The translations under genes were made by a program, and so were the position numbers. Below are positions 1 to 5,830 of a stretch of 5,830 bases of DNA, one piece after another; the first letter of the stretch is position 1, and every line of letters starts with the position of its first letter. The notes under the pieces were generated by a model. That model was given only the letters and a program-made list of their open reading frames with translations, searched no databases and had not been told where the DNA came from. Origin of the DNA: Deltaproteobacteria bacterium (GTDB lineage: Bacteria; Desulfobacterota; Syntrophia; Syntrophales; UBA2210); the NCBI GenBank assembly GCA_019314085.1, contig JAFCZZ010000235.1, positions 1 to 5,830 of the forward strand, read 5' to 3'.

Positions 1-1
1 G

Positions 2-964
2 AAGGGGTACTCGAACCTCGCGCCCGGCCAGGAGCTCTGGGTGCCGGCCGGGGACGCCGAGCGCCTCGTGCGCAACCAGCTCGCCGAGCGCGTGGGCGAA
101 GGGGGAGGGCGGGAATCTTCCCCGCCGGAACGGGGAAGAGAAGAGCCTCGGGGTCATGCACCGGTCCAGCCCGGTTTTTCACCTCCCCCGCCCTCCCCCG
201 CCGAACCGGATCCCCGGCTGGTCAGCTTCCTGAACACGAGGGGGTTCAGGCGCCTCGCCGACCGCCCGGCCTGGACGAAGCACGACAAGGTGGGGAACCG
301 CATCGTCCGCCTCGTCGTCGACTTCAAGGCGAACCCCCGGGGGAACCGCTACGGGTACGTGCTCAACGAGGAGACGGGCGAGTGGGAGGAGTCCAGGGAG
401 CTGAGGGACGCGGCGGAGGACCTCCTGGCCTTCAAGCGCTTCCGCGACGAGCTGGAGCGCGGCGGGCAAGAGCGCCTGACCGTGAAACCCGCCCCGAAGC
501 CGGGCGGGGCGCCGGCCGGGGGGCAGGCCCTCACGGTCGAGGAGGGGCAGGAGCTGATCCTGATGGTCGAGCAGCGCGACGAGCAGCAGATCATGCAGGA
601 AATTTTGGGGGACGTCCTGCGCCAGTACGTGTACCGGTTCGAGGTTGGGGGGCGCGTGGTCACCAACGTGAGCTACGCGGGGGTAAAGGAGGCCGCCCGC
701 CGGCGGGGGAACATCCACGTCACCAAGATCGAGGTGGACGAAATGAAGGACGGCCAGGGGTACCTCGCCAAGGCCGAGATCTACGACCTCGCGAACAACT
801 TCAAGACATGGGGCGTCGCCGTCCAGCGGAAAAAGATGAGGCTGCGCGACGGGCGGGAGGTGGAGGACGACTTCTGCGTCCAGAAGGCCGTGTCCAAGGC
901 GATCCGCAACGGCCTCCGCGCGTGCGTCCCCGAGAAGCTGATCGCCGAAGGGGGGAGGGGTTGA
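2..964 (+). CDS. Putative single-strand annealing (Rad52-like) recombination protein, 5'-partial
   Basis: The frame is open to the left window edge. The 13 codons before GTG 41 almost all end in G or C, as in the rest of the gene, while the other two frames do not, so the gene probably begins upstream. GTG 41 does have AGGAG six bases before it and would give 307 aa. Counting from GTG 41, there is a proline-rich linker (about 24-58), an unrecognised domain (58-140), a second linker (141-162) and a C-terminal domain (163-303). The last contains VSYAGVKEAARRRGNI, then GYLAKAEIYDL, WGVAVQ and KAVSKAIRNGLRACVP. This order (a YAGVKEAA-like helix, a strand pair, then a KAVSKAIRNALR helix) resembles Rad52-like annealing proteins of phages and archaeal viruses. 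That is a family-level inference without a search; a plain hypothetical protein is possible. The stop codon lies inside the first edge repeat of the downstream array. Confidence 0.6.
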   Translation, partial: KGYSNLAPGQELWVPAGDAERLVRNQLAERVGEGGGRESSPPERGREEPRGHAPVQPGFSPPPPSPAEPDPRLVSFLNTRGFRRLADRPAWTKHDKVGNRIVRLVVDFKANPRGNRYGYVLNEETGEWEESRELRDAAEDLLAFKRFRDELERGGQERLTVKPAPKPGGAPAGGQALTVEEGQELILMVEQRDEQQIMQEILGDVLRQYVYRFEVGGRVVTNVSYAGVKEAARRRGNIHVTKIEVDEMKDGQGYLAKAEIYDLANNFKTWGVAVQRKKMRLRDGREVEDDFCVQKAVSKAIRNGLRACVPEKLIAEGGRG

Positions 965-1794
965 GCCGCAAAGAAGTTGAGACCCAGAGGCTTCATGCGA
1001 GCCATAAAGTATGTGGAGCCCAAAATAGCGGTGCGAGCCATAGAAATTTTGGGGCCCACGGTACACGTGCGAGCCAGAAATTGTCTGAAGCCCGGAAGAG
1101 GAATGCGAGCCGCAAAGGGTATGAAGCCCATGGAGAGTCTGCGAGCCATCGGAGATATGGAACCCAAAATATACATGTGAGCCATGAAGTGTGTGGAAAC
1201 CATAGACCGGATGCGAGCCATAGTGTTTTTGAACCCCATGAGGCAAATGCGAGCCATAGAAAGTTTGAAACCCAAAGTCGCTCTGCGAGCCAAAATAGCT
1301 ATGAAACCCAAACCCTTTGTGCGAGCCATGGTTTAAGCGAAGCCCAACAGCAGGGTGCGAGCCAAAAGAGCTTTGAAGCCCAAAGAGTCGGTGCGAGCCA
1401 TGGGTTCGGTGGAGCCCGGTGGAGATTTGCGAGCCAAAAAAGCTATGAAGCCCAAAAAGCTGATGCGGGCCATGGATTCGATGGAGCCCACTGGATAGTT
1501 GCGAGCCATCGATTAAGTGAAGCCCAGAGGCTTAGTGCGAGCCGTAGGATAAATGAACCCCAGACTGCCAATGCGAGCCGCAAAAATGGTGAAACCCAAA
1601 ATATAAATGCGAGCCAAAATATGCGTGGGGCCCAAAGTTTTCCTGCGAGCCACGGCGACTTTGAAGCCCATGGAACGGGTGCGAGCCGAGAGAAACGTGG
1701 GATCCAAAGCAACTGTGCGAGCCCATACCTTTGGGACCCACGTAACGGGTGCGAGCCATAGATCTCGTGAAACCCAAAAGACGGTTGCGAGGGA
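960..1794 (+). repeat. TIGR-like array: 23 dual-spacer units of 36 bases
   Basis: Units begin at 960, 996, 1032 and so on every 36 bases to 1716, then at 1750, with a terminal degenerate edge repeat at 1786-1794. Each unit is an edge repeat (consensus TGCGAGCCA), a 9-base spacer A, a loop repeat (consensus TGRRRCCCA, most often TGAAGCCCA) and a 9-base spacer B. GCGAGCC is exact in 20 of 23 units; the exceptions are the first (TTGAGCC), the seventh (GTGAGCC) and the fifteenth (GCGGGCC). The terminal copy decays to GCGAGGG. The T before each edge repeat is invariant from unit 2 on. Spacers vary in nearly every unit, for example taaagtatg/aaatagcgg in unit 2 and cggcgactt/tggaacggg in unit 20. 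A 36-nt unit with two 9-nt spacers and two kinds of repeat next to a Nop/IS110-like gene matches published TIGR-Tas arrays. It is expected to be transcribed and cut into dual-guide RNAs. The strand is inferred from the flanking genes. The array is visibly AT-richer than its neighbours. Confidence 0.87.
1284..1499 (+). repeat. Higher-order 72-base duplication inside the array (units 10-15)
   Basis: Units alternate between two types of spacer A. Units 10, 12 and 14 have aaatagcta, aaagagctt and aaaaagcta. Units 11, 13 and 15 have tggtttaag, tgggttcgg and tggattcga. Units 12-13 (1356-1427) and 14-15 (1428-1499) align over the full 72 bases, including related B spacers (aagagtcgg with aaaagctga, gtggagatt with ctggatagt). 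By my count there are 11 differences in the 36 spacer bases and 2 in the 36 repeat bases. The array here grew by copying pairs of units, followed by change mainly in the spacers. Confidence 0.7.
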
Positions 1795-1804
1795 GCCCCC
1801 CGGG

Positions 1805-2712
1805 ATGCGGCGGATGAGGGAACGTATGCAAAGATTGAAGCACCCGCGCCTCCGCATCCTGGTCGAGTCGTACTACGACATCCAGAAGCTCCGGGTTGCC
1901 GTCTCGAACCGCCTCCAGATGTACGAGAAGCTGGACGTGCTCACCCCCCCCTCCAGGCGGCCAAGCTCCGGGAGATCGTCGACGGCTTCATGCGCGACGA
2001 GCAGAAGCTCAAGAGGGAGATCAAGGGCGAGCTGAGGGGGATCCCGGTGTGGCGGTGGCTCAAAACCATCAAGGGGATCGACGCCGTGATGGCCGGGGGG
2101 CTTGTCGCGTGGCTCGACGACCCCGCGAGGGCGCCCCACCCGAGCTCGTGGTTCAGGTACGCGGGGCTGGACGTGTGGCCGTACTGCCTGGCCTGCGAGG
2201 AGTACTTCGACTTCGACTGGAGGCCGAGCGAGCGCCCGAAGTGCCCGAAGTGCGGCGCGGCGCTCGTCGGCAGGGCGCCGAGGCGCGTGAGGGGGGAGAA
2301 GGCCCCCTGGAACTGGCGTCTGAGGACCCACCTGTGGAAGGTCTTCAAGCAGATCCTCCAGGCGGAAAAAAGGAAGGGGGTGTACAAGGAGGGGGCGTTC
2401 TACGGCCCGGCCTACGAGCGCTACAAGGCTGAGGAGATCGAGAAGTGCAGGCGGGAGGGCCTCAGGATCGTCCCCTCGGAGGACCTGCCGACGAAGGGCG
2501 GGAAGAAGTACGAGCCCCCCGGCGTGATCTCCGTCGGCCACGTCGACGCCAGAGCCAGGCGGAGGATGCTTAAGCTCTTCCTCGCCCACCTCTGGGTGGT
2601 CTGGCGCACGATGGAGGGGCTGCCGGTGCACGAGCCGTACGCGGCCAGGCTGGGGCACCGGGTGATCCCGCCGCCGAACTGGCCGCTCAAGGAGGGGAAA
2701 AAACGTGGCTGA
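1805..2712 (+). CDS. Tas-like protein (Nop / IS110 C-terminal-like domain), frame broken at a C8 run
   Basis: Probable RNA-binding effector of the adjacent array. Frame one runs from ATG 1805 (GGGAG nine bases upstream; ATG 1826 is an alternative) to the C run at 1944-1951. Frame two continues from there to the stop at 2710. Joined by a -1 step they give about 302 aa. Residues 12-80 are an amphipathic, probably coiled-coil region. Residues 88-104 (TIKGIDAVMAGGLVAWL) form a helix-hairpin-helix-like motif, followed by RYAGLD at 118-123, the order seen in the IS110 transposase C-terminal domain, to which Tas Nop domains are related. A zinc finger (Cys128, 131, 147, 150) sits where IS110 proteins have the serine motif. 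RLRTHLWKVFKQIL (172-185) follows, and the end is rich in aromatic and basic residues. No DEDD, RuvC or HNH nuclease domain is visible and there is no room for one at the N-terminus, so it resembles nuclease-less Tas proteins. Alternatives: a decayed IS110-like relic, or a pseudogene if the frameshift is real. Confidence 0.72.
1944..1951 (+). other. C8 frameshift site in the Tas-like gene
   Basis: In the upstream frame the run reads acc ccc ccc tcc, so bases 1945-1951 form the -1 slippery heptamer C CCC CCC. Without slippage the upstream frame continues as PSRRPSSGRSS, low-complexity sequence, to a stop at 2033-2035. In the -1 frame the protein continues as a regular helix (LQAAKLREIVDGFMRDEQKL). 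One extra C in the true sequence would have the same effect. A sequencing or assembly error in the homopolymer, a disabling deletion and programmed slippage all remain possible. Confidence 0.7.
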
Positions 2713-2851
2713 GATGAAGCTGAAGCGCATCGAGAACGGGTTCTTGGTGGAGTACCAGCACGCCTTGGAGCACGGGGTCAGGTACTTCCCGACCATCAGC
2801 GAGCTCCTGAAGTTCGTGGCCAATAAGACGCGCGAGTGGGAGTGGAGATGA
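2705..2851 (+). CDS. Small hypothetical protein, 48 aa
   Basis: The GTG start has a strong SD, GGAGGGG at 2691-2697, seven bases upstream. It overlaps the end of the Tas-like gene by 8 bases, so the two are probably translated from one message. The product begins (M)AEMKLKRIENGFLVEYQ and ends FVANKTREWEWR. It is a compact mixed-charge peptide rich in aromatic residues, with no signal peptide, membrane segment or cysteine. I do not recognise a family; the style is that of small virus or plasmid accessory proteins. Reality is supported by the SD, the overlap and GC-rich third positions. Position next to the Tas-like gene makes a functional link possible but unproven. Confidence 0.6.
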   Translation: MAEMKLKRIENGFLVEYQHALEHGVRYFPTISELLKFVANKTREWEWR

Positions 2852-2885
2852 TATGTCCAAGGGAGCTTCAAGTGGAGGGGAAAAC

Positions 2886-3044
2886 GTGGGTGAGTACTGC
2901 CAGAGGGGCCCCGAGTTCTGGCTGAAGGTCCTGACTCTCGCGAGGCGCATGAGGGCGCCGCCGCCATCTTCAGAGGGAGTGAGGCTTGAAGACGTTATCG
3001 GCGAAGTGGTCAGGGCCGTGGAGGAGATCGAGCGGGTGAGATGA
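2886..3044 (+). CDS. Small hypothetical protein, about 52 aa
   Basis: I place the start at GTG 2886 because GGAGGGG (2874-2880) lies five bases upstream, nearly copying the signal of the gene before it. ATG 2853, in the same frame, would add 11 residues (SKGASSGGEN-like, low complexity) and has GGAGATGAT almost touching it, which is poorer spacing. The product starts (M)GEYCQRGPEFWLKVLTLARRM, has a short proline/serine turn, and ends in an acidic-basic helix, EDVIGEVVRAVEEIERVR. It is probably a two-helix protein of unknown function. Its stop overlaps the next start by 4 bases (ATGA). Confidence 0.55.
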   Translation: MGEYCQRGPEFWLKVLTLARRMRAPPPSSEGVRLEDVIGEVVRAVEEIERVR

Positions 3045-3334
3045 TGAAGGTGTATCACGGCAAGAGGGTCAGCAAAGTCGGCGGACAGCCAGCTTACGTG
3101 GATGGGAGACCTTTGAAGCACGTGGTCAGGCACTCGCCCGATGGATTTCAGTGGGGGTACGGAGGCTCAGGACCCAGCGATTTGGCTCTGTCGATCCTCA
3201 CCGACTGTCTGGGCAAGGAGCTGGCGGAGAAGTACTACCAGCAGTTCAAGCGGGACTTTGTGGCCAAGTTCGGGGACGAGTGGGAGGTGAAGGAGGAGGA
3301 AATCCGGGAGTGGCTAGCCACCGTGGAGAGGTGA
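3041..3334 (+). CDS. DUF6166-like protein, 97 aa
   Basis: The start ATG overlaps the previous stop (ATGA), with GGTGAG directly before it; ATG 3044 is an alternative one codon later. The sequence carries YVDGRPL (about 19-25), then HSPDGFQWGYGGSGPSDLALSIL (31-53), then YYQQFKRDFVAKFG and a C-terminal IREWL. The block HSPxGFxWGYGGSGPxxLALxIL followed by YxxFK and a final WL is, from memory, the signature of DUF6166, a family of about 90-100 aa common in mobile elements and of unknown biochemical role. Length fits a complete single domain. It sits in the middle of the operon of small overlapping genes. Identification is by recognition and has not been tested by search. Confidence 0.75.
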   Translation: MMKVYHGKRVSKVGGQPAYVDGRPLKHVVRHSPDGFQWGYGGSGPSDLALSILTDCLGKELAEKYYQQFKRDFVAKFGDEWEVKEEEIREWLATVER

Positions 3335-3396
3335 GAGACAATTGCCCAACTTGTCGTGGAAAACTACTAAAAGAGAGGAAGGGGGTGAGCGGGTGA
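3331..3396 (+). CDS. CxxC microprotein, 21 aa
   Basis: The frame reads (M)RDNCPTCRGKLLKERKGVSG. The start GTG shares bases with the stop of the DUF6166-like gene (GTGA at 3331-3334). The stop TGA shares bases with the GTG of the next gene (GTGA at 3393-3396). Exact stop/start overlaps at both ends are what translational coupling predicts and fill the space between two genes with no slack. CPTC followed by a basic stretch looks like one half of a zinc ribbon, so it might bind metal as a dimer or be a remnant. There is no well-spaced SD (GGAGAG touches the start), which is the main argument against it. Confidence 0.4.
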   Translation: MRDNCPTCRGKLLKERKGVSG

Positions 3397-3596
3397 GGTA
3401 CTACGAGGTGAAGTACCCGGGCTCAAACGAGTGGGTGTCCACCCCGAGCGTTCGGGGGAGGACGTACCCGGAAGGAACTAAAATCAGGGTCGTCGTGACT
3501 GACAGGGACGGTACCCTGCTGGACTCGTGGGAGATCCCCCTGAGGAACGGCAAGCCGGACTTCAGGAGGGCCCCGGGGAAGCGGAGCGGATACTAG
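3393..3596 (+). CDS. Small hypothetical protein, 67 aa
   Basis: The GTG start is chosen over the in-frame TTG at 3342. GGGGTGA (3382-3388) lies four bases upstream of it, and the extra TTG residues overlap the microprotein frame. The product begins (M)RYYEVKYPGSNEWVS and continues with alternating hydrophobic residues (KIRVVVTDRDGTLLDSWEIPL), suggesting a small all-beta protein. It ends with a basic tail (FRRAPGKRSGY) that could contact nucleic acid. I recognise no family. It is the last gene before a gap with a probable promoter, so it likely ends the operon that begins with the Tas-like gene. Confidence 0.55.
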   Translation: MRYYEVKYPGSNEWVSTPSVRGRTYPEGTKIRVVVTDRDGTLLDSWEIPLRNGKPDFRRAPGKRSGY

Positions 3597-3619
3597 CGGC
3601 GAGGCGGAGAGAAACTTCC

Positions 3620-3627
3620 TTATTTGA
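3620..3627 (+). promoter_or_regulatory. Possible archaeal TATA box for the methyltransferase pair
   Basis: The 87-base gap 3597-3683 is AT-richer than its surroundings and contains TTATTTGA, preceded by GAGAAACTTCC, which could serve as a BRE. An archaeal promoter here would start RNA near 3648 and give a leader of about 35 bases with room for the SD at 3670. The match is approximate. Confidence 0.35.
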
Positions 3628-3669
3628 CGTGACCGAGTTCACATGACAGCTTGCCTCCCGAGGGGGTGC

Positions 3670-3676
3670 AGGTGAT
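3670..3676 (+). promoter_or_regulatory. Shine-Dalgarno that sets the start of the first methyltransferase
   Basis: AGGTGAT is a seven-base match to the canonical GGAGGTGAT. It lies seven bases before ATG 3684 and so favours that start over TTG 3651 and ATG 3675 in the same frame. Confidence 0.65.
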
Positions 3677-3683
3677 GCTTACA

Positions 3684-4286
3684 ATGGAAGAGAGGGTAAA
3701 ATCCTTTCTGAGCAGGTTCCCCAAAAGCCACCTCTGTATAGTCAACGGGCACCTCGAGGGCGTGTGGATCGTCGGCAACACATTTAGGGGATCGTACAGC
3801 GGTGGCTACTACGGCTGCTACCCCCACAGCTATCTGGAGCGGGTCCTCTCCATCTTTCCCGACCTGAAGCCGTTCCATCTCTTCTCCGGGATGGTCGAGG
3901 ACGACTGGGCGCTGGACATAAACCCAAATTCAAAGGCGTCGGTAATCGGGGACGCCCACCACCTCCCGATAAAATCTGAAAGCTTGGAGCTGATAGTCGC
4001 CGACCCTCCTTACACGAAGGAGGACGCGAGGAAGTACGGGTTCCCAATGGTAAAGAAAACGAGGGTCCTGCAGGAGTGCTGGCGTGTTCTGAGGGACGGT
4101 GGGTTTCTCGTCTGGCTCGACCTGACGTACCCCCAGATCCACTACAAGGATCTTTACAATTTCAAGCTTTACGGCCTTATCGCGGTCGTGGTCTCAACGC
4201 AGCACAGGATCAGGCAGTGCACGATACTCCAGAAGAAGCCCATTTCGGCGGGAGGTGAGAAAATTGGAGAAAGCCTACCTGCCTGA
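3684..4286 (+). CDS. Amino-group DNA methyltransferase (DPPY type), 200 aa
   Basis: Predicted to transfer a methyl group from S-adenosylmethionine to an amino group of adenine (N6) or cytosine (N4) in DNA. HLFSGM (65-70) and LDINP (77-81) form the cofactor-binding region. GDAHHLPI (89-96 region) follows, and the catalytic motif IV is ADPPY, with DPPY at 97-100. LQECWRVLRDGGFLVWLD (about 119-136) is the usual helix-strand after it. HLFSG replaces the common FxGxG, as I recall from a family of short phage and bacterial methyltransferases with a conserved YPxxYLERV segment, here YPHSYLERV (46-54). No target-recognition domain is obvious at this size. The last 23 bases overlap the next methyltransferase gene, so the two are probably co-translated. 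The base modified and the site recognised cannot be read from the sequence. Confidence 0.8.
   Translation: MEERVKSFLSRFPKSHLCIVNGHLEGVWIVGNTFRGSYSGGYYGCYPHSYLERVLSIFPDLKPFHLFSGMVEDDWALDINPNSKASVIGDAHHLPIKSESLELIVADPPYTKEDARKYGFPMVKKTRVLQECWRVLRDGGFLVWLDLTYPQIHYKDLYNFKLYGLIAVVVSTQHRIRQCTILQKKPISAGGEKIGESLPA
4251..4258 (+). promoter_or_regulatory. Shine-Dalgarno that selects a TTG start
   Basis: GGAGGTGA is an eight-base SD match located five bases before TTG 4264. The GTG at 4255 lies inside this SD and cannot be served by it. Confidence 0.65.
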
Positions 4287-5559
4287 GTACGGGTGGGTGG
4301 AGGTCTGGGATCTCCCAAAAGTGCCCCCGAAGAAGCAGCGGGAGGGCAGGTACGTTTCCGAATCCTTCGTGCACCCGGCCAAGATGGACTGCCTGCTCTG
4401 CCGGAAGATAATCGAGACCTACACGCGGCCGGGGGACTTGGTTCTGGACCCCATGGCGGGCATAGGAACCACCCTAGTCGAGGCCGCCTACCTCGGCAGG
4501 AACGCCGTGGGTGTGGAGCTTGAGGAGAAGTTCGTCCGCATAACCGAGCGCAACATCGGGCTGATGGAGGGGGCCCGAACGCTCACGCCCAAGGGAAAGG
4601 CGCAGATCATCAGGGGGGACGCGAGAGAGCTGTCCAAGCTGCTGGCGGAAGAGGTGGACGCGGCGGTGTTCTCGCCACCCTACACCGGTGCCGTGCAACA
4701 CGGGGGCGGGCTGGTAATGCAGGGTAAGTTCCAAGTTGGCGAGTCGACAAGGGCAACGTACGGCCCCTCGAAAAGCAACATCGGGAACCTTGAGTACGGC
4801 AAAGTCGACACCATTGTCACCTCGCCACCCTACTCCGAGTCGATGTCAAAGAGGCGCAAGGGGTACACCACCCTTCCACAGCTCTCGCGCACCAGACATA
4901 TGGGAGCGGACTCAAGCGACGAGAACATAGGCAACCTCCCGCACGGCGAGGTAGACGCGATAGTCACCAGCCCGCCCTACGAGAGAGCCGTCAGCCGCAA
5001 GCTCGGTGGCGGGGACAAAAATCCCCCTTTCAAAATCGGATGCAGATTCAGGGACAATTTTCCCGCAGTAAGTGACGACAACATCGGGAACCTCCCGCAC
5101 GGGTGGATTGACGCTGTGATAACCTCCCCGCCCTACGAGGAGGGCATGAGCGAGAAGCGGCACGCGACCCCCGGCACGGGGAGGACGGAGAGGCTCTGGA
5201 GGGAAAAACGCCTCGGGGGCTATCCAAGCTCGGGGGGCCAGATCGGGGCGATGAGGCAGGAGACCTACCTCTCGGCCATGTTCCGCGTTTATCAGGAGTG
5301 CTTCCGCGTCCTCAGGCCGGGCGGGCGGATGGTTCTGGTGGTCAAGCGGTTCATAAGAAACAAGAGGGTTGTGAAGCTGGATCTGGACACAAAACTCCTC
5401 TGTGAGCGGGCCGGGTTTGTCCATGAGGCCACCAAGCTCTTCAGGCTTCCTTCCCGGTCTTTTTGGAGGATCCTCTACCGCAAGAAATTTGGGAACGAGG
5501 TCCCCGAGATCGACACTCTGGACTACGAGTTCGTCCTCATTTTCAGAAAACCTTCCTAA
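4264..5559 (+). CDS. DNA methyltransferase with four SPPY motifs, 431 aa
   Basis: Predicted N4-cytosine or N6-adenine DNA methyltransferase. The order is beta-type: LDPMAGIGTT (61-70) is the cofactor loop, VGVELEEKF (82-90) the acidic contact, and TSPPY-like catalytic motifs come later. SPPY occurs four times, at 137-140, 187-190, 236-239 and 288-291, about 50 residues apart. The last three are preceded by NIGNL (172, 221, 273) and an (I/V)DxxxTSPPY strand, so a cassette of about 50 residues has been duplicated in tandem. The C-terminal part has FRVYQECFRVLRPGGRMVLVVK (340-361), then a strand-rich end. TTG 4264 is chosen for its SD. Multi-SPPY methyltransferases of this look occur in archaea and phages as far as I recall. 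Which copy is catalytic is unknown. No restriction endonuclease gene is seen, so it may be an orphan protecting the element's DNA. Confidence 0.82.
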   Translation: MEKAYLPEYGWVEVWDLPKVPPKKQREGRYVSESFVHPAKMDCLLCRKIIETYTRPGDLVLDPMAGIGTTLVEAAYLGRNAVGVELEEKFVRITERNIGLMEGARTLTPKGKAQIIRGDARELSKLLAEEVDAAVFSPPYTGAVQHGGGLVMQGKFQVGESTRATYGPSKSNIGNLEYGKVDTIVTSPPYSESMSKRRKGYTTLPQLSRTRHMGADSSDENIGNLPHGEVDAIVTSPPYERAVSRKLGGGDKNPPFKIGCRFRDNFPAVSDDNIGNLPHGWIDAVITSPPYEEGMSEKRHATPGTGRTERLWREKRLGGYPSSGGQIGAMRQETYLSAMFRVYQECFRVLRPGGRMVLVVKRFIRNKRVVKLDLDTKLLCERAGFVHEATKLFRLPSRSFWRILYRKKFGNEVPEIDTLDYEFVLIFRKPS

Positions 5560-5570
5560 GCCAAAAGTAT

Positions 5571-5600
5571 CTTATTCGTAGCCGGTCAGATACGAATGGG
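5571..5600 (+). repeat. Inverted repeat, possible operator or hairpin
   Basis: ATTCGTA (5574-5580) and TACGAAT (5591-5597) are perfect inverted copies around a 10-base centre. In RNA the stem extends to 10 pairs (5571-5580 with 5591-5600) using two G-U pairs. It lies between the methyltransferase stop and the TATA-like box of the next gene, so it may be a repressor operator or an RNA 3'-end hairpin. No U-tract follows directly. Confidence 0.4.
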
Positions 5601-5624
5601 AAACCCTGCCTCGCCTCATCCTAG

Positions 5625-5632
5625 TTTTTATG
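5625..5632 (+). promoter_or_regulatory. TATA-like box of a possible leaderless promoter
   Basis: TTTTTATG is centred about 24 bases before ATG 5652 and 27 before ATG 5655. That matches the TATA-to-start spacing of archaeal leaderless transcripts, and no good SD precedes either ATG. Confidence 0.45.
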
Positions 5633-5651
5633 AGTCAACGACAAGTTGGGA

Positions 5652-5830
5652 ATGATGGAACCCCCCAGACCGGAGAAGATCTTCGAGGTGCTCAGGGTCC
5701 TCGCGGAGTCCCTGAATGAGGGGATCGAGCGCTTGGATCGGGAGATAAAGAGGCTCGACGAGGCGCTGGACCCGAGGCGCGGGGCCGCACGCTCGGTGTT
5801 CGAGGAAATCCTCGGCGAGGTCAAGGGGAG
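5652..5830 (+). CDS. Coiled-coil hypothetical protein, 3'-partial
   Basis: The frame begins at ATG 5652 (ATG 5655 is next) and remains open to the right edge, giving about 59 residues. After a short MEPPRPEKIF start, residues 10-45 form a charged heptad pattern (FEVLRVLAESLNEG, then IERLDREIKRLDEALD), which predicts a coiled coil. FEEILGEV follows. No family can be named from this fragment. It may be oligomeric or a small regulator, and the inverted repeat upstream could then be its operator. Codon use agrees with the neighbours. Confidence 0.5.
   Translation, partial: MMEPPRPEKIFEVLRVLAESLNEGIERLDREIKRLDEALDPRRGAARSVFEEILGEVKG

Follow-up and report, generated by a model that had tools for sequence, protein, structure and literature searches.

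A 5,830-nucleotide (nt) stretch of a Deltaproteobacteria bacterium (assembly GCA_019314085.1, contig JAFCZZ010000235.1, positions 1 to 5,830 of the forward strand), called the window here over its whole length, holds between positions 960 and 2712 an array of short alternating repeats followed by a tas gene (Table 1). Judged by its repeats, profile matches and predicted fold, this region is very probably a tandem interspaced guide RNA (TIGR)-Tas locus whose tas gene has no recognisable nuclease (the TasA type), and it likely constitutes an RNA-guided DNA-binding system. TIGR-Tas is an RNA-guided system described in 2025.

Table 1. Features of the locus and its upstream neighbour, in window coordinates
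Feature	Position	Strand	Remarks
Upstream open reading frame (ORF), phage-like protein	2..964	+	cut by window start; phrog_3657, function unknown, E 3.4e-6
TIGR dual-repeat array	960..1791	+	23 units of edge, spacer A, loop and spacer B, 9 nt each
GGGAG, candidate ribosome-binding site of tas	1791..1795	+	overlaps truncated last edge; predicted from sequence
tas, N-terminal part	1805..1948	+	frame 2; 34/38 aligned residues identical to relative P0007
C-rich run	1936..1950	+	homologous reading moves from frame 2 to frame 1; placed from stops per frame
tas, C-terminal part	1951..2712	+	frame 1; Nop/IS110-like RNA-binding domain; listed ORF 1990-2712
Predicted zinc ribbon (CxxC...CxxC)	2170..2301	+	inside Nop domain; model residues 61-104

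The array and the gene beside it

A first-pass annotation of the window had reported a 23-unit array of period 36, split 9+9+9+9 with varying spacers and standing directly upstream of a Nop/IS110-like gene. Phasing the region at 36 nt recovered these 23 units at 960-1791, and the tas ATG follows at 1805. In unit 1 (960-995) the edge is degenerate (GTTGAGCCG), units 2-21 (n=20) are regular, unit 22 (1716-1749) measures 34 nt, 2 nt short, and unit 23 (1750-1785) is followed by a truncated edge, TGCGAG (1786-1791), 13 nt ahead of the tas ATG. Within the 20 regular units the edge repeat is exactly TGCGAGCCA in 14 and differs by one letter in the other six, the majority loop repeat is TGRRRCCCA, and G2, C7 and C8 are invariant across all edges and loops. 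When the repeats were tested for box D and box C, the edges carried TG....CC[AG] in 20/20 units, and the loops carried TG in 19/20 and CC in 20/20. All 20 spacers A are distinct, as are all 20 spacers B. Half-repeats of the form TG....CCA follow one another at 18-nt steps in a chain of up to 46, whereas 300 dinucleotide-preserving shuffles of this region never gave a chain longer than 4. The tandem-repeat finder TRF returned only fragments, with periods of 18, 36 and 72. A TIGR-Tas array alternates two repeats of 8-12 nt with spacers of about 9 nt, as the 20 regular units do at 9+9+9+9. A CRISPR array has one repeat of 25-36 nt and spacers of similar size; the repeats here are 9 nt long and of two kinds, a comparison that involved no CRISPR finder. 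TIGR arrays typically start and finish with truncated edges and then a terminator (PMC12045711). A pattern scan found no terminator on the + strand of the window, which fits an array that is read through into tas.

Spacers A and B show no similarity within units of the window array, and in other arrays this similarity falls below chance at register 0 (z -3.5). Two-unit duplication was considered as a general mode and rejected, as 65 arrays gave no rise at lag 2. These pooled figures, like those for stop codons below, include some arrays parsed out of phase; the window array is in phase. The window's spacers A (1005-1785) have a purine at position 3 in 21/21 nine-letter spacers, a bias not seen in the same pooled arrays.

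The tas reading continues uninterrupted in ten relatives (P0002-P0011). The C-terminal part of the window protein is 60-66% identical to its relatives. The N-terminal piece matches no Pfam family at E 0.05, and Pfam profiles, the only ones used for this purpose, detect no nuclease family in that piece or in ten relatives. By these profiles alone, the gene belongs to the TasA subtype, which has no fused nuclease. A single-protein query found no close relatives in the viral and genome contigs searched, and an alignment query for Tas relatives returned one distant genome (L065) and no viral contigs.

Relation to TIGR-Tas loci

The protein scores above the cut-off of NCBIfam NF052498 (TIGR_Tas_endo), its profile matches the solved TasR structure 9mty at E 5e-38, and its predicted fold superposes on 9mty as a Nop fold with a root-mean-square deviation of 1.5 over 159 residues. 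TasR arrays are described as having repeats with UG...CCA motifs (PMC12045711), and both window repeats carry them. The first-pass annotation had called for the repeats and the protein to be compared with published TIGR-Tas loci and had proposed that the neighbour is structurally related to Nop/IS110. Its reading of the region as a TIGR-Tas locus is supported, with the UG...CCA boxes shared and 9mty the best-matching solved structure. Its expectation that ordinary annotation would miss the locus is fair for the array; the protein can now be named by NCBIfam, and PHROGs calls its family a transposase.

Independent support for the pairing of array and gene came from a search of viral DNA with a pattern built from the repeats alone. 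This pattern found 64 viral stretches on 59 contigs, and tblastn placed a relative of the window protein in 49 of the 64. Among the array-bearing viral records searched whole, 45 of 50 carry phrog_4285; PHROGs labels this family 'transposase, integration and excision', yet it is evidently Tas. In tas loci every one of the 74 array calls shares the strand of tas (44 of them downstream of the gene, 24 upstream and 6 overlapping it, with near-identical records counted apart), and an edge-anchored parser placed 67/68 arrays on that strand, the exception being a three-unit call about 5 kb from tas. An upstream array, as in the window, is the minority arrangement. A generic TG....CCA pattern was also tried as a locus finder and set aside; the matches listed were mostly short-period, coding-like repeats, collagen-like by inspection.

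The label points to another explanation, in which an IS110-type transposase gene stands next to a tandem repeat that has nothing to do with it. Beyond the PHROGs name, the gene matches PF02371 (Transposase_20) at E 0.0017, and the IS110 model NF033542 is touched by 7/11 close relatives with a best E of 4.7e-8, P0007 reaching 19 bits against a cut-off of 140. The same model has no match to the window ORF at E 0.01, Pfam profiles found neither DEDD nor any other catalytic family in the N-terminal piece or in ten relatives, IS621 is a poorer match than TasR and TasH by both sequence and fold, and array and gene co-occur in those 45 viral records. We regard the transposase explanation as scarcely credible.

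Only slightly less remote is the idea that the array codes for protein, as a 12-residue repeat in an open frame and perhaps as an N-terminal extension of Tas. One frame is free of stops in 44 window spacers where 6.7 are expected from shuffling letters within spacers (0/200 as low), the predicted protein of the relative P0005 starts within such a repeat, and pooled arrays show mild stop depletion in repeat-open frames (102 vs 120 and 89 vs 119, some arrays mis-phased). When spacer column composition is kept, however, P becomes 0.087; a purine bias at spacer positions 2-3 thus largely explains the open frame, and translation of the array was rejected on this control. Additionally, the frame is broken in unit 22 ahead of tas, conservation falls on the letters of the box C/D motifs, and the 44 viral array calls downstream of tas can be no extension of the protein there. 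The region is read as a genuine TIGR-Tas locus of known kind, and what is new about it is the predicted domain insert, the low GC of its spacers relative to the carrier and the comparative facts on array change.

Several loci met in these searches deserve mention in their own right. Tas relatives occur in 76 records of Mycobacterium phages, named transposase or hypothetical protein among the matches listed. In Mycobacterium phage BPBiebs31 (L168 2640-2990, beside gp74), the gap upstream of the Tas relative folds into several hairpins, perhaps a stem-loop TIGR array in phages with a known host. On TIGR loci in tailed phages, PMC12045711 refers to a review of mycobacteriophages. Microcystis phage Mvi-JY20 carries downstream of tas an unannotated dual-repeat array (L169 3690-4060) with the same TGCGAGCC edge, which ends in a hairpin and a T-run; as a cyanophage with a named host, it is a good system for a target search. 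A 72-kb viral record (G003, IMGVR_UViG_3300036863_000086; L003, L028, L042, L045, L070) has many TIGR arrays around one tas match, and half-spacers are repeated in it; two adjacent units, for instance, share one spacer B.

The neighbours of the window locus, a DUF6166 protein and two DNA methyltransferases, would be in keeping with a virus or another kind of mobile element. The stop codon (TGA) of the upstream ORF falls within the degenerate first edge repeat. This gene has no match in the phage collection, and its family occurs in 4/50 TIGR viral records; it is rare enough not to be a fixed partner. One predicted methyltransferase (4255-5559) has SPPY motifs of the catalytic type in four segments that follow one another (FSPPY, TSPPY, TSPPY, TSPPY), with the same NIGNLPHG stretch ahead of two of them, which looks like a multiplied motif IV region. 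The first-pass annotation had also suggested an archaeal or archaeal-virus origin, which has so far found no support; no host evidence was obtained. The closest solved relative, TasR 9mty, comes from an archaeon (PMC12045711). A second ribbon in the relative P0002 touches transcription factor E and S models. We take these models to be archaeal. Neither observation establishes an archaeal virus.

Array change, guide composition and targets

Comparison of related loci indicates how such arrays change. Two viral stretches (L002 and L047) that are 93.8% identical over 1.4 kb holding tas share one unit of 13 and 7, with one further spacer A recurring beside a different spacer B. Unit turnover is fast between close viral relatives. 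Another pair (L033 and L036, flanks 85-92% identical) retains seven units in the same order and differs by gain or loss of entire units. Both comparisons drew on a unit parsing in which some arrays were out of phase. Reuse of spacers was counted within arrays on Tas-bearing stretches (18/70 loci dropped), with the window left out and a match defined as 8-9 of 9 letters. Spacer A gave 12 pairs, where column-preserving shuffles gave 0.69 (at most 4 in any of 500). Four of these are whole-unit duplicates, six have partner spacers B agreeing at no more than five letters and two lie in between, which leaves 8 pairs beyond whole-unit duplicates vs 0.7 expected. Spacer B gave 6 pairs vs 0.82 expected (largest 4), four of them the same whole-unit duplicates, and the remaining 2 vs 0.8 expected on these stretches are not significant. 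All parsed arrays except L282, L287 and L292 had given 13 A and 10 B pairs, each including the four whole-unit duplicates; with the restriction to Tas stretches the B pairs fall from 10 to 6, and the claim of spacer B reuse falls with them. In the window array, spacers A agreeing at seven or more of nine letters form 7 pairs with 2.2 expected (P 0.007), and spacers B form 2 with 0.87 expected (P 0.22). Our reading of the A pairs is that half-units were gained or swapped, the repeats serving as joints. Three adjacent cases (L045, L070, L014) were inspected for the triple of units that simple unequal exchange at the loop would leave, and none showed it.

Spacer composition was compared across 42 arrays of at least six units on stretches with tas. 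Spacer guanine-plus-cytosine (GC) content follows that of the carrier (r 0.63, P 8e-6, a P value inflated by related arrays; r 0.64 over 54 arrays without the tas-stretch filter). The window array, with spacer GC of 0.41 vs 0.62 for its carrier, is the largest departure in both sets, and the purine fraction of its spacers is 0.65 vs 0.55-0.57 in three window genes. Guides aimed at low-GC foreign DNA would explain the low spacer GC, and a composition rule of the array would do so too. The departure gives a handle on where targets might be sought.

Several points weigh against a working TasA-type system in the window. The tas frame is interrupted, with homology in frame 2 to about 1948 and then in frame 1, and unit 22 has lost two bases. 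NCBIfam names the family an endonuclease, and a nuclease beyond profile recognition may exist in the window family. A natural target was not established: the composite of spacer A and the reverse complement of spacer B (A+rc(B)) has 0 exact sites for 552 units in 1.97 Mb, and its 10 one-mismatch sites, although above every shuffle (maximum 9), are not independent. The tas break and the loss in unit 22 may be read error or decay, and with its frame interrupted the window copy may be inactive or mis-read. It is possible, if rather unlikely, that the system is genuine and this copy is decaying or dead, as the frame break, the two-base loss and the lack of an established target would allow. Both defects, however, are single small length changes of the kind that metagenomic read errors give, one of them in a C-rich run, the repeats are still near-uniform, and the C-terminal part keeps its 60-66% identity to relatives.

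The composite site follows from the published cleavage rules, 8-nt 3' overhangs with one spacer per strand (PMC12045711), from which the target is derived as A and then the reverse complement of B. The corrected test covered 124 stretches with arrays masked, using the edge-anchored parser and units from stretches with a Tas relative only. Sites at one, two and three mismatches numbered 10, 159 and 1921. Twenty within-array shuffles gave means of 0.45, 5.65, 158 and 1900 at zero to three mismatches (largest 2 exact, 9 one-mismatch and 178 two-mismatch), and three wrong geometries gave 0, 6-7, 149-160 and 1880-1967. In an earlier listing, six units accounted for ten one-mismatch hits: one A/T-rich unit gave four, and another unit gave two, at seemingly one site in two related, near-identical records; owing to this lack of independence, the slight excess is counted as no evidence for targets. 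Earlier searches with gaps 0-2 over 0.61 Mb and 1.97 Mb, arrays masked and some non-window units mis-phased, gave in the larger set at three mismatches 2239 for the true pairing, a shuffle mean of 2094 and 2161-2210 for wrong geometries. In IMG/VR, two window guides of the 23 were scanned and matched at chance level: unit 13 on 2 contigs that are one virus (99.97% identical), and unit 16 and a mismatched control nowhere. When composite sites, some of them mis-phased, were compared all-against-all, reversed matches were not in excess. At the loosest threshold, shifted matches numbered 9 vs at most 8 in 60 shuffles and were not counted, because wrong geometries gave 5-8; the two top hits came from L287, a decoy. 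A unit that matched another with A and B swapped, once taken as support for the tandem rule, was a phase error and was withdrawn. Window unit 20 has a one-mismatch A+rc(B) site in a TIGR-carrying viral record (L160 12967, record G050), at about the chance rate.

Proposed mechanism and known systems

By analogy with the tested TasR and TasH systems, the array would be co-transcribed with tas, its transcript would be cut within the edge repeats into 36-nt tigRNAs when Tas is present, and each tigRNA would sit in a Tas dimer with its edge on one protomer and its loop on the other. The two spacers would pair with opposite DNA strands, over an 18-base-pair site composed of A and the reverse complement of B. 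A complex that has no nuclease would bind, unwind and bend its targets rather than cut them, and would thereby keep competing DNA from being transcribed or replicated, or else regulate it. A wider proposal, in which arrays are reprogrammed by half-unit shuffling with A and B gained and exchanged as separate modules across the loop and edge repeats, one half-guide is thus reused beside new partners, the guides of the window locus are aimed at DNA of much lower GC than the carrier and its zinc-ribbon TasA is an RNA-guided repressor, is speculative and we consider it improbable. The targets of arrays, their growth (termed an enigma) and the role of nuclease-less TasA are left open in PMC12045711, and the passages of PMC12385481 do not mention turnover, recombination or zinc. 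To these questions the window locus contributes a long array of the TasA type together with a domain insert, and the comparison adds countable facts on array change, namely unit sharing in close relatives and recurrence of spacer A above chance.

Of the systems to which the locus can be compared, archaeal box C/D small ribonucleoproteins with their protein Nop5 are set apart in that the window has no Rfam family match above chance. With the IS110/IS621 bridge-RNA recombinases, window Tas shares a related RNA-binding C-terminal domain. TasH of Salicola phage CGphi29 has an HNH nuclease (PMC12045711), other repeats (AAGCGAGYCA and AAGACAACCA types) and a downstream array. Set against the TIGR-Tas loci of PMC12045711, the window array differs in lying upstream, with 13 nt between its truncated last edge and the start of tas. 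The 23 window units exceed the 5 to 15 most often found for TIGR-Tas in PMC12045711, and one other array parsed here has 27. The Nop domain of the window also carries a predicted zinc ribbon, and the word zinc does not occur in the main text of that paper. The locus resembles the TasA and TasR loci described there, with the same alternating edge and loop repeats bearing UG...CCA boxes, 9-nt spacers, a 36-nt unit, and an array beside a Nop-domain tas gene among mobile-element-like neighbours. TasR (PDB 9mty), which comes from a Thermoproteota archaeon, bears a RuvC nuclease at its N terminus (PMC12045711), whereas none is recognised in the window family, and it is this best-matching solved structure that shares its Nop fold with window Tas.
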